NCBI GenBank assembly: GCA_013152315.1
Contig: JAADGP010000037.1
Span: 1-39,510 of the forward strand
Source: FCB group bacterium
Lineage (GTDB): Bacteria; Fidelibacterota; Marinisomatia; Marinisomatales; JAADGP01
Length of the DNA: 39,510 nucleotides
Direction of reading: 5' to 3'
Shown here: piece after piece, positions 2,699 to 27,740 of the stretch
Numbering within the stretch: position 1 is the first letter of the stretch
Layout: every line of letters starts with the position of its first letter
The notes under the pieces: model-generated
What the model was told of the DNA's origin: nothing
The model's database searches: none
The model's input: only the letters and a program-made list of their open reading frames with translations
Position numbers and translations under genes: made by a program

Positions 2699-4944
<2,246 letters not shown>

Positions 4945-6063: not shown

Positions 6064-7179
6064 CTAATCATTCAATCGAATAGGCATCAGCAACATGGTT
6101 ACATCCAGTTTTTCCCGTGGTGTTTTCGGGAAAAATAACGCCGCACTGATGGGTGTTTTAAAGCGAATAACGATGGTCTCATCCGAAACATGGGCAATGA
6201 TATCTTTCAGATACAGTGCATTATATCCAATCAGCAGATCCTCTCCTTCGTATTCTGCCGGGAGTTCTTCTTCCGCCTTGGACGCTTTTTCCGGATCTTC
6301 GGTGGTAATCAGGGATCGTTCCGGGCTCAGTCGCAACGCAATCTGCTGAGTGGATTTATTGGAAAAAATGGACACTCGCCGTACGGCGCCCAATAATTTA
6401 TCGCGGTCGATGGTCAATGTCTTGTCATTATCGGAGGGAATGACTGATTCGTAATCCGGATACCGGTCATCAATAACCCGGGTATAGACAAAATCATCAC
6501 CGATGGATGCGGTGAGATGGTTTTCGCTCATGGATAATTCCAGTGTTTCCGTTCTGTCCAGAAGATTATTCATCAGGCTCAGAAATTTACGAGGAACAAT
6601 CATACTTCCCGTATATCCCCCGGCTTCATAATCATTTACAATATACCGGACCAACCGATGGCCGTCGGTGGCTACGGCGGTAAGATTTTCGGCGGTGAAG
6701 TTGAAATACACGCCGGTTAGTACCGGTTTCAATTCATCCCGGCTAACCGCAAAAAGAGTCATGTCGATAATTGACTTCAGAACGCTGCCTGAAATCTGGA
6801 TATTTTGTTGTTCGGTAACCTCCGGCAGGGCGGGAAATTCCTCGGCTGATTTCCCCATTAAATCATAGACGCCGGTTTCGGTAATTAATTCAATTCTGTT
6901 TTCGGGGTTGGAAGCAATTGTGAGCCTTCCATCGGGTAGCGCAGAAGTAATGTCCAATAATGTTTGTAGCGGTATTGCCGTGGCTCCCGGCTCTTCGATG
7001 CTGGCCGTTAAGCGCGAAACCAGGGTGATTTCCAAATCCGTTGTTCGGAGTAGGACCTGATCTTGTTCCACCTTGAATAAGGCGCAACTGAGAATCGGGA
7101 GCGTAGACCGGGCGGGAACTGTTTTGGACAGTTTTTGCAGTACGGTAAGCAATTCTGATTTTGATGTGGATATTTTCAT
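6064..7179 (-). CDS. dnaN: DNA polymerase III beta subunit (sliding clamp)
   Basis: A 371-residue processivity clamp. The three-fold repeated clamp architecture is supported by the length, the N-terminal SKSELLTVLQKLSKTVPARS and TTDLEITL, the middle DGHRLVRY, and the C-terminal motif LLMPIRL that forms the partner-binding pocket. The ATG follows CAGGAATCCT, an acceptable ribosome site. It is the first gene of the six-gene minus-strand operon, and the origin-like region lies immediately upstream of it. dnaN is normally next to dnaA; here they are 11 kb apart with other genes between. Confidence 0.98.
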   Translation of the reverse strand: MKISTSKSELLTVLQKLSKTVPARSTLPILSCALFKVEQDQVLLRTTDLEITLVSRLTASIEEPGATAIPLQTLLDITSALPDGRLTIASNPENRIELITETGVYDLMGKSAEEFPALPEVTEQQNIQISGSVLKSIIDMTLFAVSRDELKPVLTGVYFNFTAENLTAVATDGHRLVRYIVNDYEAGGYTGSMIVPRKFLSLMNNLLDRTETLELSMSENHLTASIGDDFVYTRVIDDRYPDYESVIPSDNDKTLTIDRDKLLGAVRRVSIFSNKSTQQIALRLSPERSLITTEDPEKASKAEEELPAEYEGEDLLIGYNALYLKDIIAHVSDETIVIRFKTPISAALFFPKTPREKLDVTMLLMPIRLND

Positions 7180-7240
7180 AGGATTCCTGTGAAAATTGTA
7201 TCTGTAGGATTAAAAATTTTCATGTCCGATTTAGCACTTG

Positions 7241-7269
7241 ATGTTACCGAAAATCTCCCCGTTTCACAA
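7241..7269 (-). promoter_or_regulatory. Candidate sigma70-type promoter for the dnaN operon
   Basis: On the minus strand TTGTGA (7269-7264) and TAACAT (7246-7241) are separated by 17 nt, about 60 nt before the dnaN ATG. Each box matches four of six consensus bases. It is placed between the DnaA-box cluster and dnaN. Assignment is by eye and not exclusive. Confidence 0.4.
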
Positions 7270-7309
7270 GGGATTTTGGAGTGCGGGACAACATACACCT
7301 GCAGGGTAA

Positions 7310-7560
7310 ACCATATAAATAAATCCAGTTTATAGTAAAAGAATTAATTTTAATAAGCCCGGTGGATAAGGGGATAATTTTGTGGATAACAACTTGTTTT
7401 TATTCGTCAAAATGTGAAGATACGGGGAAAAGTTGAAGCCCGAAATTATGGGGAAAAGCGATATCAAAAAGTGGATAACGTTTGGAAAGAAAACAATCCC
7501 GGAGCATAACGGCTTCGACAAATATCATTTATACGGTATGTGGAAAGGTCTTGTGGAAAA
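7310..7560. other. Putative oriC: DnaA-box cluster, DnaA-trio-like triplets and AT-rich unwinding tract
   Basis: This is the core of the 382-nt gap between dnaN and surA. On the minus strand, DnaA-box-like 9-mers share one orientation: TTTTCCACA (7560-7552), CTTTCCACA (7547-7539), TTATCCACT (7478-7470), perfect TTATCCACA (7389-7381), TTATCCCCT (7378-7370) and TTATCCACC (7369-7361). Two further TTTTCCCC copies lie near 7447-7457 and 7423-7432. The last box is followed by GGGC and then TTA TTA AAA TTA (7356-7345). A tract at 7313-7356 is 39 of 44 A/T by my count. A DnaA box, then a GC step, then triplets, then an AT-rich tract is the arrangement described for bacterial basal unwinding systems. 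Origin function is inferred. Confidence 0.75.
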
Positions 7561-7561
7561 C

Positions 7562-8854
7562 TCAGCCGTTCTGAATGATGGTGAATCTGGACCGGGCAGA
7601 TTCGATCCATGATTGGAACCACTTCATCTTTTTCTGATTCAGGGCCATTTCTTCTATTCGGGCCCAGTGGATATCCAGATTTGGCTCACCTCCGGGCCGA
7701 ACATCTTCTAACCACAGCAAATGATAACCAAAATCGGTTTTCACCGGTGGACTGCACCGACCTTTTTCTAAATAAGGTACCACTTGCGCCAATTCGGGGA
7801 TGGAAAAATTATTGGGATCTACCCAACCCAAGTCACCGCCAATACTTTTAGTTTGTTCATCCGATGAATACTTCAAAGCAAATGCTTTAAAGGATTCCAG
7901 CGACTGTATTGAATCGGCTATTACACGTGCCTCTTCATAGGTTCGGGAATCGTCGGCATCCGTAATCTTCGGCTGGATCAGAATATGGCGAACGTGGATT
8001 CGATCACCTTTGATTTCCAGCGTTTGAATTAAATGATATCCAAAAACAGTTTTAACAGGAGCGCTGATATCGCCGATAGGCAAAGTAAAGGCCACCGATT
8101 CAAATTCGGGAACCAGGGTACCGCGCCGGACAAAACCCAGATCACCGCCTCGATCCCGCGTTCCCGGATCTTGTGAATATTTCCGAGCCAGGTCTTCAAA
8201 GGGTTCGCCGTGTATAATTTCATTCTTCAGGCTATCGAGCAGAGAAATCGTTTCATCCTGACTGGTCTTGCTTGGTTTAATCGGAATCAGAATGTGCCGC
8301 AGTTTGATTTCCGTGGGAAAAGAAGGCAGGCTGTCCCGATAAGTATTAAAAAACTGAATCACATCATTCCGGGTTACTTTAATATCATTCATTAACTGTT
8401 GCTGATAGCGTTCCGTGACCAGCCTGTCGTGCATATCCTGCCAAAATTCCCGACGGAATGATTTCAACGACTGACCCATCATTTCCTCGGCGCGAGCCTC
8501 GCTGCCGGCCTGAGCAATAATATTTTGGATCTGTTGATCTAGGGCGGAATCGACTTCCTTGTCTTCAACTTCAACGGAATCTAATTTGGCCATTTCAAGC
8601 ATAATTTTCTGATCAATCAAGGATTGAAGAACATTTTCTTGGAGTTTCACATATTTTTCAGGATCGCGATTGGGGTCCAATTTTTGTTGCATAGCGGTCA
8701 TGGATGACAATTGAGACACATCGCTTTTTAAAATAATATTTTCGCCCACCACGGCGGCGATTCCTTCGATTATCTGAGGTGCTTCCACCGTTTGCGCACA
8801 AAGTAACCCGGTTATAAACCCCGCTACCAGCAAAACTGGCCGTTTACTGATCAT
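7562..8854 (-). CDS. SurA-like periplasmic chaperone / peptidyl-prolyl isomerase
   Basis: A roughly 430-residue protein with a signal peptide (MISKRPVLLVAGFITGLLCA), a SurA N-terminal helical domain (IIEGIAAVVGENIILKSD onward) and two parvulin domains. The first has LRHILI and GGDLGFVRRGTLVPEFESVA; the second has VRHILI and GGDLGWVDPNNF. SurA-type proteins chaperone outer-membrane proteins in the periplasm, so the cell should be diderm. I chose the ATG at 8854 because it has a GGAGA site 7 nt upstream and an 11-nt overlap with the preceding gene. An in-frame ATG eight codons earlier would overlap by 35 nt and put charged residues before the signal peptide. Last gene of the yidC-surA run. Confidence 0.9.
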   Translation of the reverse strand: MISKRPVLLVAGFITGLLCAQTVEAPQIIEGIAAVVGENIILKSDVSQLSSMTAMQQKLDPNRDPEKYVKLQENVLQSLIDQKIMLEMAKLDSVEVEDKEVDSALDQQIQNIIAQAGSEARAEEMMGQSLKSFRREFWQDMHDRLVTERYQQQLMNDIKVTRNDVIQFFNTYRDSLPSFPTEIKLRHILIPIKPSKTSQDETISLLDSLKNEIIHGEPFEDLARKYSQDPGTRDRGGDLGFVRRGTLVPEFESVAFTLPIGDISAPVKTVFGYHLIQTLEIKGDRIHVRHILIQPKITDADDSRTYEEARVIADSIQSLESFKAFALKYSSDEQTKSIGGDLGWVDPNNFSIPELAQVVPYLEKGRCSPPVKTDFGYHLLWLEDVRPGGEPNLDIHWARIEEMALNQKKMKWFQSWIESARSRFTIIQNG

Positions 8855-9662
8855 TGATATTCTCCATAAGTACTTCAATATGTGAACTTAACCTAAGACT
8901 ATCCAATATCCTCAGATTCGCCAAAGCGCGTTTTTCCGAGATTAGTCGTTGGTAAATCTCATCATAAACTTCGTTCAAACTCTTCTGTGAACCTTTTGAA
9001 TGTCGCTCCAAAACTTCAATCACGTGATAACCGGAAGCGGTCTGAACCGGTCCCAAAATTCTTGCTCTCGATTTGGCCCGAAATACAAGATCGTCCAATT
9101 CTGGCAGCAAGTAACCCTTTTTCACAGTTATTGCGTCAACGCGGTAAGCGGTAAAAAGTTCTTTACGCTGAGCACCCGATTTGCGCGTCGTCAGGGTTCG
9201 AAACACAGAACGGGCCTCTTTCAGCGTGGGGAGAACAAAGTGATAAATACGGGCCTCGTCTGCGTTTCGCACAAACATGGTTTTGTTCTCTTGATAATAG
9301 GAGGACACATCGCCGGAGGTTATGGGCTTGAATTCCAGGGAGCGACTGTCCAGAAAGGTGCCGCCCAACAATTTCCGGCGGTAATTTTGAACCATCTTGG
9401 TCAGCGTTTCATCCCGATCAAGATCAGAAAGCAATGCGGCCTGATAGAGTAATTCCTCGTTTATCCACTGGGAAACAATATCATTCATGGTTGCCTGTGA
9501 CTGGTCATAGGCCAGTAAGCGGCCCCGGGCCTCTTTAAGGGTCAACCGGGCCCCGTTGACCCGTGCAACGACGGGATTGTCGGGCGTTGGCGGAGGCGCC
9601 GTATCTTTTTTGGAAGAACAACCGATAATCAGAAACAGAACAAGCAGCAGTAATCGTGACAT
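8844..9662 (-). CDS. Lipoprotein with degenerate parvulin-type (PpiC/PrsA-like) domain
   Basis: A 272-residue predicted lipoprotein: hydrophobic leader followed by the lipobox LIIGC with Cys15, then a Pro-rich spacer. A SurA_N-like segment follows (NPVVARVNGARLTLKEARGR, then a long helical stretch). The C-terminal part keeps the parvulin outline (EARIYHFVL near the start, GPVQTASGYHVIEVLE at the end) but lacks the GGDLG signature seen twice in the neighbouring SurA-like protein, so isomerase activity is doubtful. Its start overlaps the mfd stop by one base (TAATG), and its end overlaps the surA-like gene. A role as a folding factor for secreted or outer-membrane proteins is inferred from the pair. 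Confidence 0.75.
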   Translation of the reverse strand: MSRLLLLVLFLIIGCSSKKDTAPPPTPDNPVVARVNGARLTLKEARGRLLAYDQSQATMNDIVSQWINEELLYQAALLSDLDRDETLTKMVQNYRRKLLGGTFLDSRSLEFKPITSGDVSSYYQENKTMFVRNADEARIYHFVLPTLKEARSVFRTLTTRKSGAQRKELFTAYRVDAITVKKGYLLPELDDLVFRAKSRARILGPVQTASGYHVIEVLERHSKGSQKSLNEVYDEIYQRLISEKRALANLRILDSLRLSSHIEVLMENINDQ

Positions 9663-18128: not shown

Positions 18129-18148
18129 TGTGGAAAACCTGTGGATAA
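18129..18148. promoter_or_regulatory. Pair of DnaA boxes upstream of dnaA
   Basis: TGTGGAAAA (18129-18137) and the perfect box TGTGGATAA (18140-18148) lie 2 nt apart, 23 nt before the dnaA ATG. A candidate promoter lies upstream, near 18083-18111 (TTGGTT, 17 nt, TCTAAT), so the boxes fall in the leader or just downstream of the start site. They fit DnaA autoregulation and could be a second half of a bipartite origin. Confidence 0.75.
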
Positions 18149-18171: not shown

Positions 18172-19506
18172 ATGATTTGGGCCAAGACCAAAGACCTTCT
18201 TAGAGAGCGACTCACCGACCATGCATATAATACATGGTTTGAGCCGGTTACGTGTATTGCCGAAACACCGTCGGAAATAATTTTGGAAGTACCCAACCAA
18301 TTCTTTTATGAATGGATTGAAAGTCATTACCGGCGAACTCTGGATACAATTTTTAAAAACGATTTTCAGCAGAACCTGTCGATTAAGTATACCGTATCTC
18401 CGGAAACGGTAAAGTCTGTTACCGCAGGAGAAGAACCGCTGATCCGTTCGGAGCGAAGTGCGAAAACGACACCACCGCTGTTAAACCGGAATTATACTTT
18501 TACTTCATTTATTGAAGGCGCCAATAATCAATTTGCCCGCGCGGCCGCATTCAGCGTTGCTGAATCACCGGGACAAAGTACTTTCAACCCCTTGGTGATT
18601 TACGGTGGTGTGGGCTTGGGAAAAACCCACCTTTTGCACGCCATTGGTAATCATATCCTGCAGACCCGCCCGGGGATAAAAATCGTCAGCGCATCCAGTG
18701 AAAAATTCACCCAGGATTTTATTTCCAGTATTCAGAAGAATAAAACCGTGGAATTTTCCCGCTACTACCGAAAGGCCGACATACTCCTGATTGACGATAT
18801 ACAATTTTTCCAGCGAAAAGAACAGACCCAGGAGCAATTTTTCCACACGTTCAACGTTCTCTATCAAGCTGGAAAACAAATTGTAATGACCGCTGATCAA
18901 TACCCCGGAGAAATGAAGGGACTTCAGGAACGTCTTTTGTCTCGCTTTCAGTCGGGACTTTCGGTGGATATACAACCACCGGATTTTGAAACGCGGGTGG
19001 CCATCCTTTTGGAAAAAGCGGAAATGAACGGGTTGGAGTTACCTTATACGTATATAGAATTTATGGCCACACATATTAAGGATAACATCCGGGAATTGGA
19101 GAGCACAATCATTCGTCTTCTGGCCACATCCTCGCTGTTCAATCGGGAAATTGATTTGGAACTGGTAAAAAAAGTTGTCCGGGAGCGTCTGGGCCAACGG
19201 GCTCTCGTAGATCTTTCATTTGAAGATATTGTGCGGCGAGTATCCCGGCTGACCAATGTGACCGAAAAAGAAATCGTCGGTGTTCGTAGAACCAAACATA
19301 TTGCCCAGGCCCGACAGATCGCCATTTATCTCTGCCGGGAAATATTAAACAACTCGCTTTCGTCCATCGGACTCTATTTTGGTGGACGGGATCACACAAC
19401 AATTATGCACGCCTGTCAAAAAATAGAAAGCCGTTTGTCGTCGGATTTGCAACTGAAGAATCTGGTGAATTCAGCCCGGCAAGAACTGAATCGGATTCCT
19501 GCATAA
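18172..19506 (+). CDS. dnaA: Chromosomal replication initiator protein DnaA
   Basis: A 444-residue origin-binding AAA+ ATPase. Domain I begins IWAKTKDLLRERL. The linker runs about 75-105. Walker A is GGVGLGKTH (145-153) and Walker B ILLIDDIQ (204-211). Domain IV carries RTKHIAQARQIA (373-384) and the signature GRDHTTIMH (405-413) that contacts DnaA boxes. The start is set by the family-typical IW just after the Met; the Shine-Dalgarno sequence is weak (AAAGGG about 15 nt upstream). It is the first plus-strand gene and stands alone: dnaN is not downstream. Confidence 0.98.
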   Translation: MIWAKTKDLLRERLTDHAYNTWFEPVTCIAETPSEIILEVPNQFFYEWIESHYRRTLDTIFKNDFQQNLSIKYTVSPETVKSVTAGEEPLIRSERSAKTTPPLLNRNYTFTSFIEGANNQFARAAAFSVAESPGQSTFNPLVIYGGVGLGKTHLLHAIGNHILQTRPGIKIVSASSEKFTQDFISSIQKNKTVEFSRYYRKADILLIDDIQFFQRKEQTQEQFFHTFNVLYQAGKQIVMTADQYPGEMKGLQERLLSRFQSGLSVDIQPPDFETRVAILLEKAEMNGLELPYTYIEFMATHIKDNIRELESTIIRLLATSSLFNREIDLELVKKVVRERLGQRALVDLSFEDIVRRVSRLTNVTEKEIVGVRRTKHIAQARQIAIYLCREILNNSLSSIGLYFGGRDHTTIMHACQKIESRLSSDLQLKNLVNSARQELNRIPA

Positions 19507-19588: not shown

Positions 19589-19712
19589 CCTGCCAATTGA
19601 TTTGGAGAACGTGGGATTCGAGCACCCCTTTTTTGGGGGAAGGTGTAACAACACAAGCGCTCACACCAATATTTCAACTTCAAACCCTGAACGAACCCTA
19701 TTAGGAGGACCT

Positions 19713-22700
19713 ATGTGGCGTAGAACGTTAAACATAGTTGTTTATTCAACCGTTGCTCTCGCGATTGTTTTTGGTGGTCAAACCAACACAATCAGCGAAG
19801 ACAATACACCGGTTGGTTTAGTAAAACAAAAAATTGATAATAATGAACAGCTCACTTTTGCTGATAAACAAATTGCGGATGAAAACAATTTAATAGAGCA
19901 ATCGACAGTTGTATTTTATCCAAAAAGTTTTTTAAGTGCATCACGCACAATTTATCTTACAGAAAGTTTTGAGACGTGGCCCCCAACTGGTTGGACGTTG
20001 GATCCTGCTTCGGGAACGGGTTCGTGGATTCAGGATGACGGGACAGATCACGGTCCCGGATCAGCCTATGATGGATCTTATGCGGCGGATTTCAATAATT
20101 ATGATTATTCCTCCGGTACGCAAGGATCAATGATTTCCCCTGCTATTGATCTAAGCACAGCGACAGCGCCGTTATTAAAATTTTATTGGTGGGATGATGG
20201 CAGCAGTTATACACCGGCACAATTAATCGTTGCCACCACAACCGACGGTGCAACCTATACACCAATTGATACTATTGATACTTACGGATCTGGATCCACC
20301 TGGGTATTGGCTTCTTATTCCTTGGGCCTCGATGTCACTGGATTTAAACTTACCGGAGTAAGTGATTGGGGTGTTAAAAATACATTTGTTGATTTACTTA
20401 CCGTAGAAGAAGCCCCGACCGACCCGATTTTAACCGTGTCTGCCGATTCCCTCGGGTTCGGTGCGGTCATCCCCGGAATGTCTGTCGATCAGGTATTAAC
20501 GGTGTCAAACACCGGTGGCGCTACGCTGAATATATCCAGCATCACCTCTACGAATACGGCTTTCACCGTAGATGTAACCTCTGCAACCGTGTTGCAAGAC
20601 AGCTCCCTGGATGTAACGGTTACCTTCACTTCTTCAGCACCAGCCAGAACAGATTTTACAGGCGACTTGATTATTGTTTCCGATGCCGCCTCTTCACCGG
20701 ATACCGTACTTTTGGGAGGCGATGCCGCCCCAACGTCCGGTGGACCTGATGCTTATGGATACACCTGGACTACAAGCTATGATGCTTCCGGACCAACCTA
20801 TGCCTGGGTTGACACTACGGGTTCGCTGAATAGAGTTGTAGATGGTGATGATGTACGAGGTGAAATTTCCTTACCCTTCCCGTTTTATTTTTACGGAAAC
20901 TGGTATACAAATCTTTGGTTGACTACAAACGGGTGGGCAAGCTTTGGTGATGACCCGGGCAGTTCTTATTATAGCAACTATACAATACCCTCTTCCAGCG
21001 GACCGGAAAATATGTTTGCGCCCTTCTGGGATGATCTTAAAATAAATCAATCGCCTTACGGGACCAACTATGGTGGTGGATCGATTCGCACTAAAGTGGT
21101 TGGTACAGAACCAAACCGCCAATTTGTTATCATCTGGCAGGATGCGGGAAGGTATTCACCCTATGATAACAACGGAACGTTCCAGGCAATATTATATGAA
21201 ACGTCCAACAATATTGTTTTCCAATATCTTGATGTAGATTTTAATAATTATGACAATGGCGTTTCTGCTACCGTTGGGATTGAAAATATTGATGGTACTG
21301 TTGGTTCGCTGATTGAATACAATGGAGACCCACAGTTGGTTTACGACGGCGAAGCCATTTTATTCACAGCGCCGACACCCCCCGATCCCCTTTTCTTTTC
21401 TGAATACATCGAAGGATCAAGCAACAATAAGGCACTGGAAATTTATAATTCATCCACGGATACGGTTGATTTATCAAACTACATTATTCGCGGAAATTAT
21501 AATGGCAACGCTTGGAGCGAAGCCTTTCCTTTCCCGAACGGTGCAGCCATTGCTCCCGGAGATGTCTACGTGATAGCCAATAGTAGTGCCGATCAGGCCA
21601 TTCTGGATGTTGCCGATACTTCGTATGCATATGGCTCTCCCTATTATATAACAGCGTTTAATGGTGATGATGTTCGTGCTTTGTGTTCAGTCGTTGGTAC
21701 GGACACAACCATTATTGATATTATAGGAGCTTATGATCTTGTCGATCCCGGTTCTGGTTGGGATGTTGCTGGTGTAACAGCTGCTACAAAGGATCACACG
21801 CTTGTCCGCAAAGCAAGCGTTCTTCATGGGAACACGGACTGGGCCTCTTCCGCGGGGACTGATTCAACGAATTCTGAATGGCATGTTTTACCTCAGAATA
21901 CGTTCCAGTTCCTTGGTTCCCATCCTAATACTATTGTTCAGGGTGCTGGATGTGACAATCCGATCCCGGCAATTGCCGGAGAAAACAGCACTGCTGGCGC
22001 ACCGGTGTGGTATGAATACACAGCAACGGTTGACGGATCAATTACAATTTCATCCTGTTACACCGGCCAATTGGTAGATACTCGTCTCTCTGTGTATGAC
22101 GCCTGTGATGGTAACCAGGTCGCGTACAACGATGATATTTATTGTAGTGAATATTCTTATGCCTCTGAAGTAACCTTCAGTTCCCAGGCCGGTGTCACCT
22201 ATAAAATCTATTGGGATGACTACTGGTCAGCAGATTCATTCCTGTTCACACTTTCCGAAACCAGCGCTATGGTTGACTTTGTCGTTTCTTCCATGTGGGA
22301 TGATGCTGACACGGTGTTTGCCGTGGTGACCAACCAGGGCGACGCAGATTCTCCCGGATGGTTAGGTTTTGGTACCGATTACCACGGTTGGGATGTGGAT
22401 GGCGACACCTTGCGCTATGCTGCCGGACCGGCCTTGGCCGCCGGGGCCAGCGACACTTTCGCGCTCTACGGCTTTACCTGGGATAACGTTGGTATCGGAA
22501 CTTACCATGTTGGTTTTATCGCTGATATTGATAACGATACACAGGAATCAGACGAAACCAACAATAGTGCCTACCATGATATTGTTGTCCCCGCTCCTCC
22601 AATTATCCCACAGAATTTGCAGGCTTTCAGCGGATTTGGTTATGTGGACCTGTTCTGGAATCCGGCTCCGGTGATCGACACTTCCGTTGTACGTGGTGCT

Positions 22701-25700
22701 GAAACGCTGCTTCAACAGAAAGTCTTTGTGCAAGACCCGATCACCACAATTGCCAACCGCAGTGGTTTAAAACGGAAAACCATTGCCAAGGATCAAAACC
22801 CGGACGTTGGAGAGTCGCACGTTTCCAAAGCGGAATATCTTGGCAACGCCCGCCTCTTGGGCGATGATTGCTCTGATCCGTACATCATTGACGCTTTGCC
22901 GTTTGATACAACCGGATCAACATCTGGTTTTGCTGATGATTTTGGATCTTTTAACTCAGCTGGTGATGTGGTCTTTCAGTTTATTACGACTGAACTTTCT
23001 CATGTGACAATCTCCACAGATGGCTCCGGTTTTGATACCCAGCTCTTTCTGTATGATGATTGCGCCGGTGATTACCTCTATTTTGATGACGATGGCGGTG
23101 CCGGTTTACAATCTATGATTGTCGCCAATAATCTGCCAGCGGGAACCTACTACATCGTTGTGGATGGATACGGATCCAGCGAAGGCGATTATGTACTGAG
23201 TGTCACGGCTACAACCGGACCGCTACCCATGGCTGATCTGGAGATCACTTCGATGACCCAGAGTGCCGACACCGTAACTGCGGTGGTAACCAATATTGGT
23301 ACTGCGGATGCCGAATCCTTCTGGGGCGATGGTGGAACCGTGGCCTGGTTCCTTGACGATCAATATATTGGTGAAGTTTATCCCGATGTATTTGCACCGG
23401 GTGATTCTCAGGAATTCCTGCTTTACGGGTTGGAATATGCCAACATTGGTCCGGGAACTTTCTCGGTGGCGGTCTATGCCAATTTCTACATGGAATTTGA
23501 AGAATCCGACTATACTAACAACAGTGATTCCCTGGATGTTGTTATCCTTGAACCGGATTATATCCCGCTGTACAATGTGTATCGGGACAGTATTCTGCTG
23601 GTAGACAGTCTGCCGCCGATAGACTTTGCATTTAACGGTGGATATCATGACACTTCCGGCGTTCTGGATCAGGAATACTGCTATTACGTAACTCAGATTC
23701 TGGCCGATTCCACCGAATCAGACGGTTCCAATGAAGCCTGCGCTACAGCGATTACACCGCCTTTTGGTCATCCTCCCGGTAACGTCGTTGCCGAACCGGG
23801 TGACGCAGTCGTCGACTTGTACTGGAACGAACCCATGAGTCCCTGGGAAATTTTCTGGGATGACGGAACCGCCGAAGCGTGGTATTGGGTTGGGGCACCG
23901 GATGCTGACGGCCTGTATTACTTTGGTGAAACTTATATGTGGCCGGAGGATAATACCGTTGATCAGATAAAGGTTCTCTTGCGATCCTTTAACGTAACGC
24001 CCCAGGATATCAATTTCTATGTCTTCGGTGATGACAACGGTGAACCCGATGAGACCAATATTCTGGGTGGACCGTATACAGTTTCCTTTAATCCCGTAGA
24101 TGATCAACCGGTTTGGGTTTCTGTCGATGCCGGTGTTTCAATCACCGGTAATGTTCCTTTCCATATCGTGACCGAATGGACCACGGCCAATGATTATGCT
24201 GTGGGTTCAGATGATGCCATGCCGGACGGAATGAGCTACTGGACCATGGACGGTGGCGTGGAATGGAATCAATGGTTAAATCATGATTGGATGATTCATG
24301 CTGTCATGGGTGCTCCGGTACGTTCGGATGTGACCCCCGGAAACTACACGATAGAACCCAGCTCGATTCCCTATGGTGATGCGATTGTCGGCGCCACGAG
24401 CATGGATAAGAACATGACCGAACCACCAACCCAAAGGTTAGAAAAGATTACTCTTGGTACGTTGGTTAAGGGTCGGAATTACCATGTGGCTCCGGTACAA
24501 AACAGTAACCGCGCTTTCATCGGATACAACGTGTATCGTTCGGAAGATGGCGGTGACAATTTCGCCCAGGTCGCTACGGGAGTAACGGACTTGTTCTACT
24601 CTGACCTGACGGTGGTGAACGGTACTACGTATTGGTATGCCGTTACCAGTCAATATGATGAAGGTGAATCCCTGTTCTCTAACCTTGCGGTAGCCACACC
24701 GCTGGCACCGGGAATTCTTCCCTATGCCACTGATTTTGAAGCGGACAATGGTCTGTTTGCCGGCGATGGCGACTGGGAATGGGGTGCACCAACGGCCTTT
24801 GACGGACCCGACTCCGCTCACAGCGGTAGTAATGTATGGGGAACGGTATTGGCAGATGATTATCCCAATAATTCAGTTTCCTGGCTCCTGAAACCCTTTG
24901 ACCTGTCCGGCGTGACCGGAACTGCGGTCATGGGCGGCTGGGCCTGGTATGACATTGAAAGTGGTTGGGATTACTGCTACATTGTAGCCGGTCCCGATAC
25001 AGCCGGTTTCTACTGGATTCTGGATCAATTCACCGGCTCTTCCGATGGATGGGAAACGGGTGAAACCTTAATTCCGGATGAATTACTCAGCGATTATACC
25101 TACCTTGGATTCGTGTTTATTTCCGATGGTTCGGTTACCTATCCGGGTATGTTCCTGGATGACCTTTGGGTGGAAGACAGAGATCTACCCGAACTTACGC
25201 TGGATGGCGTCCCGTTTGAAGGTTTGAGTGTAAACCTTCTCTACGGCGATGTGGCCGGTTCTGTGGACTTCGGTCTGGGGAATGCCGGTACGGACTCCCT
25301 GGATTACAATATCACTTATGAAGCTGCCGCCGGACGTATTATTAACGCCCGTGAAATTGACGGCGCTCACATGTGGTCCATGGACCCGCCGCCAAGCGCT
25401 GGAGAAACGGTAGATCTGACGCTTTATGTTACCAATGAAAGTTCCGATGCGGAATGGATTGATTCCGTTGTGGTTACTTTCCCGGTTGGTGTTACCGTGA
25501 ACAGTTCCACAGATATGACCGTTGTTGGAGGTACACGGTATCTGCAAGGCGATGGAGCTACCGGTGACGGCGCTTCCATTACCTGGACGAACTGGGACGG
25601 TGGTTTTGGCAACATCTACAGCACCGAAACAGCCTCCGCGGTTGTTAATGTGACGATTGATGCCAATTACACCGATATGGTATACTTTGACTATGCCTTA

Positions 25701-27740
25701 AGTGGCGATGATTGGGGTGATGAACCTCATGATATTACAGGAACCTTTATCTTCCTGCCGCCGCTCTTCGAAGTTTCCATTACTCCTGATTCCGGCTTTG
25801 TCGCACCCGAAGACACAACTACAATCGTAGGCGACGTTGCGGTGAATGAATACTTTGCCGGCTTCTATCCGGGATTCCTGACCATTGAACATAACGATCC
25901 CCATCTCCAGGGACAGGATGTGGTCATTCCCTTCAATGTTATCCTGGATCCGGGTCGTGGAGATTTAACCGGAAGCGTAACCTCATCCTATGATGGTTCG
26001 GCTGTTGAAGGCGCCACGGTTGCCGTGGATACCTTTATGACAACAACTGACGCCACGGGTAACTTTACCATCCTGGATATTCCGGAAGGTGAATGGGACG
26101 TCATGTTCCACGCACCGGGATTCTATGATTATCTTGATTCCGCGGTTGTTATTGTTGTCGACAGTACAACCACTCTGGATATCGCCATGGATCCGAAGAT
26201 GCCCGAGGTCGTAATCGATGCTCCGGCTGAAGGCGAAACCGTATATGGTTCCAGCGTGGTTATCGATTTCACCGTGAATAACTTCAAAGTCGGTGGTGGC
26301 GCAACACGCTCACAGGAAGAACACACAGAGCTTGAGCGTCCGGCTGCTATTGATGTCAATTCCAAGGGTCCGCGAACGGATACACCTGAAGGTTTAATAC
26401 GGGTAGAAGCCGCGCCGCGTGAATTAATCATGCTGTCTCAACATGACGGCGTACCCAATAATGGCTACTATCAGGATTGGGGTACCGGCTATGGTGTGGT
26501 TTATGACCTTACTGATTATCCCGGTGCATCCATCGAACTGGTGGACTTCCGCCATAGTTCCTGGGGTCTTTCCGGAACATGGGACTATGCTATTCATGTA
26601 GTCGATATGGAAACCCGGACACCGTTGGCCGTTTTCACTGGTTTTCAAACAACGGTTGATGACGAATGGGAATTGAATATTCCGCTAGGTGTTGGTACTG
26701 ATGGTCAGGTCTATATCGGGATCTTTATGGAACCCATGGGTAATGTCGTAGACGATGCCTATCCGGATATTGATTGGGATGTGGCCCTGGATGGCGACAG
26801 CCGTTTGGTTGATCTTGCTGATTATTCCGATATCGGCGCATCCGGCGGTGATTTCCTGATGAATCTTTGGATTGATCCGGATGGCGGCGGCGTTGATGGA
26901 CATATTCAGTACTTCCTTGATGGGAATTTTATAGCCGATCATTTCAGTCGCGATCCCATCACCCTGGAAGATGTTACTATGGGCGACCACAATGTGAAAT
27001 TGCAACTGGTGGACACGCTGGGGAACGTTCTGGATCCCGATGCCTGGGATGAAGTGAACTTTATCCGCGGTAACCACGCCCCCGGCGATTTCACGCTGGC
27101 TTTCCAGGGTTCCAACAATGGAAACATCAATATTACTCCGGATAACCTGACAACACAGATTCTGTTCATGTGGACCCAATCTGTGGATATGGATGCCGAT
27201 GCAGTGAACTACGGATTCTATTTCATCAGCGGACAGGATTCGATCCGGATGTTGACCACCGATCAGATGAGTGCCAATATCTCCAACCAGGCGATTTATG
27301 ATTCCGTATCCGCTCACGGTTGGGATGGTGTCAGCACAGCCTCCTGGGCAATAGAAGCTTCGGATGGTTATGCTTCCACTTGGGCCGGTGATCCATTCAG
27401 CATAGCTGGGTTAACGATTGATTATTCGGCTATGGGTGTCGACGATGATGCTTTCATTCCGGATGAATTCGCACTTTATCAGAATTATCCGAATCCGTTC
27501 AATCCGATAACAACGATTGTTTATGATCTTCCCGAAGCATCGAATGTTACGATTGAGATCTACAATATTGTTGGTCAGCGGGTACGGACTCTGGTGAGCG
27601 ATCATCAGGAACCCGGTCGGTACAAGATTCACTGGAATAGCACCAATGACCTAGGAGCGCCTTTGTCCTCCGGTATGTATATTTATCGGATTCAGGCCAA
27701 AGACTTCTCCGCCGTCAAAAAGCTGATCCTGATGAAATAA
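19713..27740 (+). CDS. Giant multidomain secreted protein with T9SS C-terminal sorting domain
   Basis: 2675 residues. Start set by AGGAGG before ATG at 19713; the resulting N-terminus MWRRTLNIVVYSTVALAIVFGG is a Sec signal peptide. Rough order: MAM/jelly-roll-like (84-228), HYDIN/anchor-D-like Ig (237-335), NIDO-like (349-554), lamin-tail domain starting FFSEYIEGSSNNKALEIYN (556-737), PPC (747-850), CARDB (853-961), FN3 N-half (961-988), PPC (1050-1169), CARDB (1173-1281), FN3 C-half (1283-1350), second FN3 split by a jelly-roll module (1356-1665), MAM-like (1671-1822), DUF11-like region (1826-2014), carboxypeptidase-regulatory-like (2081-2160), an Ig domain split around another jelly-roll (2164-2452), FN3-like (2455-2566), and the sorting domain (2581-2675) with YQNYPNPFNP at 2589-2598. 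Acidic, no catalytic motif seen. Probably a cell-surface adhesin or scaffold; function unproven. Confidence 0.85.
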   Translation: MWRRTLNIVVYSTVALAIVFGGQTNTISEDNTPVGLVKQKIDNNEQLTFADKQIADENNLIEQSTVVFYPKSFLSASRTIYLTESFETWPPTGWTLDPASGTGSWIQDDGTDHGPGSAYDGSYAADFNNYDYSSGTQGSMISPAIDLSTATAPLLKFYWWDDGSSYTPAQLIVATTTDGATYTPIDTIDTYGSGSTWVLASYSLGLDVTGFKLTGVSDWGVKNTFVDLLTVEEAPTDPILTVSADSLGFGAVIPGMSVDQVLTVSNTGGATLNISSITSTNTAFTVDVTSATVLQDSSLDVTVTFTSSAPARTDFTGDLIIVSDAASSPDTVLLGGDAAPTSGGPDAYGYTWTTSYDASGPTYAWVDTTGSLNRVVDGDDVRGEISLPFPFYFYGNWYTNLWLTTNGWASFGDDPGSSYYSNYTIPSSSGPENMFAPFWDDLKINQSPYGTNYGGGSIRTKVVGTEPNRQFVIIWQDAGRYSPYDNNGTFQAILYETSNNIVFQYLDVDFNNYDNGVSATVGIENIDGTVGSLIEYNGDPQLVYDGEAILFTAPTPPDPLFFSEYIEGSSNNKALEIYNSSTDTVDLSNYIIRGNYNGNAWSEAFPFPNGAAIAPGDVYVIANSSADQAILDVADTSYAYGSPYYITAFNGDDVRALCSVVGTDTTIIDIIGAYDLVDPGSGWDVAGVTAATKDHTLVRKASVLHGNTDWASSAGTDSTNSEWHVLPQNTFQFLGSHPNTIVQGAGCDNPIPAIAGENSTAGAPVWYEYTATVDGSITISSCYTGQLVDTRLSVYDACDGNQVAYNDDIYCSEYSYASEVTFSSQAGVTYKIYWDDYWSADSFLFTLSETSAMVDFVVSSMWDDADTVFAVVTNQGDADSPGWLGFGTDYHGWDVDGDTLRYAAGPALAAGASDTFALYGFTWDNVGIGTYHVGFIADIDNDTQESDETNNSAYHDIVVPAPPIIPQNLQAFSGFGYVDLFWNPAPVIDTSVVRGAETLLQQKVFVQDPITTIANRSGLKRKTIAKDQNPDVGESHVSKAEYLGNARLLGDDCSDPYIIDALPFDTTGSTSGFADDFGSFNSAGDVVFQFITTELSHVTISTDGSGFDTQLFLYDDCAGDYLYFDDDGGAGLQSMIVANNLPAGTYYIVVDGYGSSEGDYVLSVTATTGPLPMADLEITSMTQSADTVTAVVTNIGTADAESFWGDGGTVAWFLDDQYIGEVYPDVFAPGDSQEFLLYGLEYANIGPGTFSVAVYANFYMEFEESDYTNNSDSLDVVILEPDYIPLYNVYRDSILLVDSLPPIDFAFNGGYHDTSGVLDQEYCYYVTQILADSTESDGSNEACATAITPPFGHPPGNVVAEPGDAVVDLYWNEPMSPWEIFWDDGTAEAWYWVGAPDADGLYYFGETYMWPEDNTVDQIKVLLRSFNVTPQDINFYVFGDDNGEPDETNILGGPYTVSFNPVDDQPVWVSVDAGVSITGNVPFHIVTEWTTANDYAVGSDDAMPDGMSYWTMDGGVEWNQWLNHDWMIHAVMGAPVRSDVTPGNYTIEPSSIPYGDAIVGATSMDKNMTEPPTQRLEKITLGTLVKGRNYHVAPVQNSNRAFIGYNVYRSEDGGDNFAQVATGVTDLFYSDLTVVNGTTYWYAVTSQYDEGESLFSNLAVATPLAPGILPYATDFEADNGLFAGDGDWEWGAPTAFDGPDSAHSGSNVWGTVLADDYPNNSVSWLLKPFDLSGVTGTAVMGGWAWYDIESGWDYCYIVAGPDTAGFYWILDQFTGSSDGWETGETLIPDELLSDYTYLGFVFISDGSVTYPGMFLDDLWVEDRDLPELTLDGVPFEGLSVNLLYGDVAGSVDFGLGNAGTDSLDYNITYEAAAGRIINAREIDGAHMWSMDPPPSAGETVDLTLYVTNESSDAEWIDSVVVTFPVGVTVNSSTDMTVVGGTRYLQGDGATGDGASITWTNWDGGFGNIYSTETASAVVNVTIDANYTDMVYFDYALSGDDWGDEPHDITGTFIFLPPLFEVSITPDSGFVAPEDTTTIVGDVAVNEYFAGFYPGFLTIEHNDPHLQGQDVVIPFNVILDPGRGDLTGSVTSSYDGSAVEGATVAVDTFMTTTDATGNFTILDIPEGEWDVMFHAPGFYDYLDSAVVIVVDSTTTLDIAMDPKMPEVVIDAPAEGETVYGSSVVIDFTVNNFKVGGGATRSQEEHTELERPAAIDVNSKGPRTDTPEGLIRVEAAPRELIMLSQHDGVPNNGYYQDWGTGYGVVYDLTDYPGASIELVDFRHSSWGLSGTWDYAIHVVDMETRTPLAVFTGFQTTVDDEWELNIPLGVGTDGQVYIGIFMEPMGNVVDDAYPDIDWDVALDGDSRLVDLADYSDIGASGGDFLMNLWIDPDGGGVDGHIQYFLDGNFIADHFSRDPITLEDVTMGDHNVKLQLVDTLGNVLDPDAWDEVNFIRGNHAPGDFTLAFQGSNNGNINITPDNLTTQILFMWTQSVDMDADAVNYGFYFISGQDSIRMLTTDQMSANISNQAIYDSVSAHGWDGVSTASWAIEASDGYASTWAGDPFSIAGLTIDYSAMGVDDDAFIPDEFALYQNYPNPFNPITTIVYDLPEASNVTIEIYNIVGQRVRTLVSDHQEPGRYKIHWNSTNDLGAPLSSGMYIYRIQAKDFSAVKKLILMK

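Follow-up and report, generated by a model that had tools for sequence, protein, structure and literature searches.

A probable chromosomal replication origin between surA and dnaN, away from dnaA, in a Neomarinimicrobiota bacterium

Introduction

Where does a chromosome begin to replicate when dnaA does not lie next to dnaN? This question is raised by a 39,510-nt contig (the window, by which we mean the whole stretch analysed) of a MAG from the Neomarinimicrobiota, the phylum formerly called SAR406 and now also named Fidelibacterota (PMC11652737); by DnaN, its nearest relatives are Candidatus Neomarinimicrobiota / Marinimicrobia. The contig carries gyrA, gyrB, dciA, recF, dnaN, an intergenic region (IGR), surA, prsA (our label for the second PPIase gene beside surA), mfd, mnmG, mnmE and yidC, all on the minus strand, followed by dnaA on the plus strand. 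A preliminary description, made from the sequence, had taken the surA–dnaN IGR to be a functional oriC without an adjacent dnaA. Our analysis supports this main inference: the IGR is, with high probability as judged from sequence comparison, the chromosomal oriC of this marine-type bacterium, a reading that follows from conservation across the phylum, a strand-composition switch in relatives, and the separability of the element from dnaN (by gene insertions) and from dnaA (in the relative G150). Our literature search found no replication origin described for Neomarinimicrobiota. A concrete origin is hereby offered for a large, almost uncultured phylum, and one cultured species, Fidelibacter multiformis (PMC11652737), makes it testable.

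Results and Discussion

The locus and its source

The product of the gene on the far side of the IGR contains SurA_N and two rotamase domains, bearing out its earlier designation as surA-like, and the DUF721 open reading frame within the dnaN–gyrA gene run is DciA, a member of a helicase-loader family. Directly past dnaA, positions 19602-27740 encode a 2712-aa protein with lamin-tail, CARDB and carboxypeptidase-regulatory domains and a type IX secretion sorting tail. Coordinates of the features discussed are collected in Table 1.

The source bin (G000; 163 contigs, 2.08 Mb) carries a second dnaA (contig C5) and a second dnaN/gyr block (contig C140), the two contigs corresponding to loci L003 and L006; the second DnaN is 67% identical to that of the window and resembles the congener G001. 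A real duplication is less likely, as C5 and C140 belong to one syntenic block of the congener; going by this synteny the bin contains a small admixture of a related species, which provides an extra comparison.

Table 1. Features of the surA–dnaN locus and of the dnaA side in the window
Feature	Position	Strand	Basis
dciA (DUF721), likely replicative-helicase loader	4669..4944	minus	Pfam DciA 1.1e-19
dnaN, sliding clamp	6064..7179	minus	Pfam
surA–dnaN IGR, proposed oriC	7180..7561	minus	box cluster; orthologous IGRs conserved; skew change point in relatives
Separate dnaN promoter-like block	7241..7270	minus	TTGTGA 7269-7264, 17 nt, TAACAT 7246-7241
AT tract 39/44, proposed DNA unwinding element	7313..7356	minus	starts TTA TTA AAA TTA; AT element kept at equivalent place in relatives
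GC step GGGC	7357..7360	minus	sequence; CCCC/TGCC/GCCC/GACC/GGCC there in some relatives, absent in others
Terminal DnaA box TTATCCACC, the box nearest the melting tract	7361..7369	minus	aligns with last box of relatives
Weak DnaA-box-like TTATCCCCT (2 mismatches), tandem with TTATCCACC	7369..7377	minus	sequence
Perfect DnaA box TTATCCACA	7381..7389	minus	sequence
Weak DnaA-box-like TTTTCCCCA (2 mismatches)	7449..7457	minus	aligned to the TTTTCCACATaAAgt box conserved among relatives
DnaA box TTATCCACT (1 mismatch)	7470..7478	minus	sequence
Weak DnaA box CTTTCCACA (2 mismatches)	7539..7547	minus	sequence
DnaA box TTTTCCACA (1 mismatch)	7552..7560	minus	sequence; many relatives with similar box ~-350 to -380 from dnaN
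surA-like periplasmic chaperone/PPIase, other neighbour of the IGR	7562..8878	minus	Pfam
Tandem boxes TTTTCCACA/TTATCCACA close upstream of dnaA, 11 bp apart; probably a DnaA autoregulation site	18129..18148	minus	same kind of pair abuts dnaA in relatives read
dnaA, initiator, divergent, 10.6 kb from proposed origin	18172..19506	plus	Pfam DnaA_N, Bac_DnaA, Bac_DnaA_C

The IGR holds a one-sided DnaA-box cluster and the least stable DNA of the window

An oriC is expected to contain a DnaA-box cluster above chance. Between 7361 and 7560 the minus strand carries seven 9-mers with at most two mismatches to TTATCCACA, four of them good boxes (at most one mismatch) and three with two mismatches, two of the seven overlapping by one base, while the plus strand of this segment has none. 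Six such 9-mers on one strand within 262 bp did not arise in any of 3000 Markov shuffles (mean 1.1), nor did four 1-mismatch boxes on one strand in any of 5000, and no 382-bp stretch of the window outside the cluster has more than two of these 1-mismatch boxes. The close pair TTATCCAC-N12-TTATCCAC occurs a single time in the 2.08-Mb bin, in this IGR.

The second expected feature, an adjacent AT-rich and thermodynamically unstable element, lies immediately behind the last box, where the letters following GGGC read TTATTAAAATTAATTC... (also given as TTATTAAAATTA) and open a tract that is the least stable 44-mer of the 39.5-kb window by nearest-neighbour energy. The preliminary description had listed at least six minus-strand box-like 9-mers, among them the perfect one at 7389-7381, and a terminal box at 7369-7361 leading through GGGC and TTA TTA AAA TTA into a 39/44 A/T tract; letter by letter, all of these stand at the positions given.

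From these elements a course of initiation can be proposed. DnaA, encoded 10.6 kb away, would bind the row of same-facing boxes, nucleate at those between 7389 and 7361, extend over GGGC onto 7356-7313 and melt the tract, after which the helicase would be loaded, probably via DciA, whose gene lies in the neighbouring operon. One fork would copy dnaN-recF-dciA-gyrB-gyrA co-directionally and the other would meet the genes from surA to yidC head-on.

The site is kept at surA–dnaN across the phylum

The order yidC-mnmE-mnmG-mfd-prsA-surA-IGR-dnaN-(recF)-dciA-gyrB-gyrA is found at almost every locus read; with dnaA in front it is conserved within the taxonomic order, and without dnaA beyond it as well. 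Even the 0.7-1.0-Mb genomes of family f15 retain dnaA|yidC-mnmE-mnmG-surA-IGR-dnaN-gyrB-gyrA, with mfd, recF and dciA not detected. G150, from another order of the class, has the same gene order with dnaA apart, and in two genomes of other classes (G106, G107) dnaN (minus) and dnaA (plus) are still ~14-15 kb from each other. Among 60 IGRs, 143 boxes point toward dnaN and 15 the reverse way, where 6 and 2 are expected, and the box columns, together with the AT element right behind the last box, align across the taxonomic order. On these alignments, the box/AT site is kept phylum-wide at surA–dnaN.

Strand composition switches at the IGR in relatives

The third expectation is a switch between leading- and lagging-strand composition. 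The raw GC skew of the window is misleading because genes on the same strand carry a skew of their own, and we therefore modelled G/C at 4-fold sites in seven long-contig relatives, the model having separate terms for gene strand and for the side of a change point. In this test, set beforehand and run on relatives with the same gene order, the 4-fold skew switches at the surA–dnaN IGR and not at the dnaA promoter: the summed likelihood of the seven peaks at 0 kb from dnaN with 150 log units and amounts to 72 at -11 kb, the position of dnaA. The joint signal is dominated by G034 (111 log units), whose change-point interval of -500..0 relative to dnaN coincides closely with its surA–dnaN IGR (-457..0) and whose raw cumulative minimum falls 120 bp upstream of dnaN; its dnaA site (-11.5 kb) fits 78 log units worse, the same deficit as in the joint fit. 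G013 also peaks at 0 (20 units) and G041 within 4 kb (6 units), whereas G060 favours -16 kb (23 units against 15 at 0). No informative local 4-fold signal, being either unclear or opposite, was obtained from G009, G076 and G025, and sampled skew in the single-contig relative G150 was noisy, with no clean switch.

A comparison of dnaN..gyrA with yidC..surA, which share a coding strand in the window, gives a difference there in the predicted direction (z 2.1), the 4-fold skew of the window being weak. The corresponding difference between coding strands reaches z 4.1-8.4 in four genomes from the family of G034 (L115, L116, L117 and L120). Across 36 genomes the mean difference is small (0.036) and positive in 22, is strong only in the G034 family, and runs in the opposite direction locally in L052 and L058. 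A composition switch is thus seen in G034, in G013, roughly in G041 and jointly, with the window itself at z about 2.

Boxes at dnaA and the possibility of a split or dnaA-side origin

A tandem box pair also lies just upstream of dnaA, and it is probably a site of DnaA autoregulation, to judge from the same kind of pair in relatives. It could alternatively belong to a split bipartite origin, in which the dnaN-side cluster with the melting site and the dnaA-side pair are joined by DnaA looping. Such an arrangement would be an inverted and stretched form of the bipartite oriC of H. pylori and B. subtilis (PMC8235120), where, as here, one set of boxes lies by the dnaA promoter and another, with the melting site, by dnaN; there, however, dnaA lies between the two sets and is looped out, while in the window the sets are separated by 10.6 kb and a block of other genes. 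Both sets are conserved, and in most genomes read the IGR and dnaA are no more than about 6-15 kb apart, but the pair abuts the start of dnaA, as autoregulation predicts, and leaves with dnaA in G150. We consider looping of this kind unlikely, and it would add to the oriC reading rather than oppose it.

If instead replication began at the dnaA promoter (18.0-18.17 kb), where many bacteria have their origin, the dnaN-side boxes would be auxiliary. The abutting pair of boxes 11 bp apart found in the relatives read, and the single-contig genome G115, which has dnaA at its contig start, agree with this idea. Yet the dnaA side offers two boxes only, no conserved AT element accompanies them in the relatives read, the upstream region of dnaA in the window is not unusually unstable by nearest-neighbour energy, and the change point there carries the 78-log-unit deficit described above. 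In G150, moreover, dnaA and its own box pair are 91 kb away, and the surA–dnaN IGR retains the tandem boxes TTGTCCACA-TTTTCAACA followed by an AT element. That the box/AT element has stayed put in this genome counts against an origin on the dnaA side, which we regard as very improbable.

The G115 record (C1) is numbered from dnaA (58-1404), with dnaN near the other end (2774263-2775369). This starting point probably differs from the origin. An origin assigned to dnaA, as the numbering of this record suggests, would be off by some 11 kb or more, and growth estimates from metagenome coverage depend on the correct origin.

In bacteria the common order is rpmH/dnaA-dnaN-recF-gyrB-gyrA. Compared with this order, a single inversion that broke between dnaA and dnaN and reached from dnaA past mnmG would give the arrangement seen; in this scenario the melting part would have stayed with dnaN and dnaA would have moved to the far end.

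Insertions separate the element from dnaN

The boxes might also be a DnaA-responsive regulatory region of the dnaN-recF-dciA-gyrB-gyrA operon, since the operon follows the cluster directly and relatives share a promoter-like block closer to dnaN; this is scarcely credible given that the skew switch is located at the IGR and that the four clearest loci with genes inserted before dnaN (L011, L034, L048 and L121) keep boxes and AT element directly after surA, up to 7 kb from dnaN. Other inserted loci (L051, L057, L059 and L122) have fewer or degenerate boxes beside surA. As in G150, the element remaining in place at the insertions counts against its being a dnaN promoter.

The promoter-like block itself, CTTGTgAAA...ggTAA..T (CTTGTgAAA...GGTAAcaT in the window), is conserved in relatives ~60-90 bp before dnaN, and in L011, with its gene inserted upstream of dnaN, a similar block still adjoins dnaN. 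We had also entertained the TATAAATAAT element of relatives as the dnaN promoter and rejected it, as it stays with the boxes at gene insertions (L034, L048) and the separate block lies nearer dnaN. A dnaN promoter in place of an oriC is therefore disfavoured, and the surA–dnaN element is very probably an oriC.

In six of the inserted loci, all from one subclade (L048, L051, L057, L059, L121 and L122), a recurrent signalling cassette sits exactly between the origin-like element and dnaN; its contents, named by eye, are an HATPase anti-sigma-factor-like ATPase, STAS-like and GAF/cyclase-like proteins and sometimes a large sensor.

Comparison with known origins and the DnaA-trio question

The proposed origin is very probably of a known kind, beside dnaN as in some cyanobacteria (PMC7198777). 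The oriC of Synechococcus elongatus (PMC7198777) is likewise near dnaN with dnaA encoded separately and a skew shift at dnaN; it belongs to another phylum with other neighbour genes, and here dnaA is usually within about 6-30 kb in an apparently inverted block.

The basal unwinding system (BUS) of B. subtilis oriC (PMC6669920, PMC8287927) resembles the window in its same-orientation tandem DnaA boxes, short GC step and AT tract opening with TTA triplets upstream of dnaN. It differs in that dnaA is not adjacent in the window and the trios are imperfect, with TATAAATAAT instead of clear trios in many relatives. The published search rule calls for a box with at most two mismatches, preferably in tandem, a spacer of 0-16 bp and three or more triplets in a row whose central base is A on the opposite (3'-5') strand (PMC8287927). 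In the window the tandem TTATCCCCT/TTATCCACC followed by GGGC provides the box at the required distance, and its DnaA keeps the ISM for single-stranded DNA and the box-binding domain IV, by the motifs SSEKFTQDFISSIQKNK and GGRDHTTIMHA (aligned with B. subtilis DnaA, 8btg). Read loosely, the rule is satisfied by TTA ATT CTT TTA CTA at spacer 13, which is likely by chance in such AT-rich DNA; read strictly, the run is two triplets long (TTA TTA), breaks at AAA and is no better than chance. The window is basal-unwinding-like in its layout of box, GGGC and AT tract, as the preliminary description had it, and that its AT tract is read as DnaA-trios has partial support.

Behind the last box, seven relatives (L114, L117, L108, L110, L102, L112 and L011) carry strict trio runs, which are convincing in the first six of these, among them L117 (TTATCCACA-CCCC-TTATTATTACTA) and L114 (TTATCAACA-TGCC-TTATTATTATTA). 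For family f15, the box-strand run with T at the centre is above both shuffles (z 9) and the opposite strand; outside this family strict trio content is not above shuffles. Perhaps, though we hold this only tentatively, the single-strand origin code has drifted within the phylum, with trios (TTATTATTACTA) in some families, TATAAATAAT in others and the window intermediate. Such drift would present a natural series in which the unwinding sequence changes and boxes, position and gene neighbourhood are constant, and perfect-trio and trio-less families at one conserved locus allow the requirements of DnaA for opening DNA to be tested by comparison. Finally, at the R1/DUE junction of E. coli oriC (NC_000913) TTATCCACA and GGGC are followed by CTAATAAG, which resembles the CCACAGCCCTAATAAATAA of some relatives of the window, the E. 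coli spacer being longer (13 nt) than that of the window.
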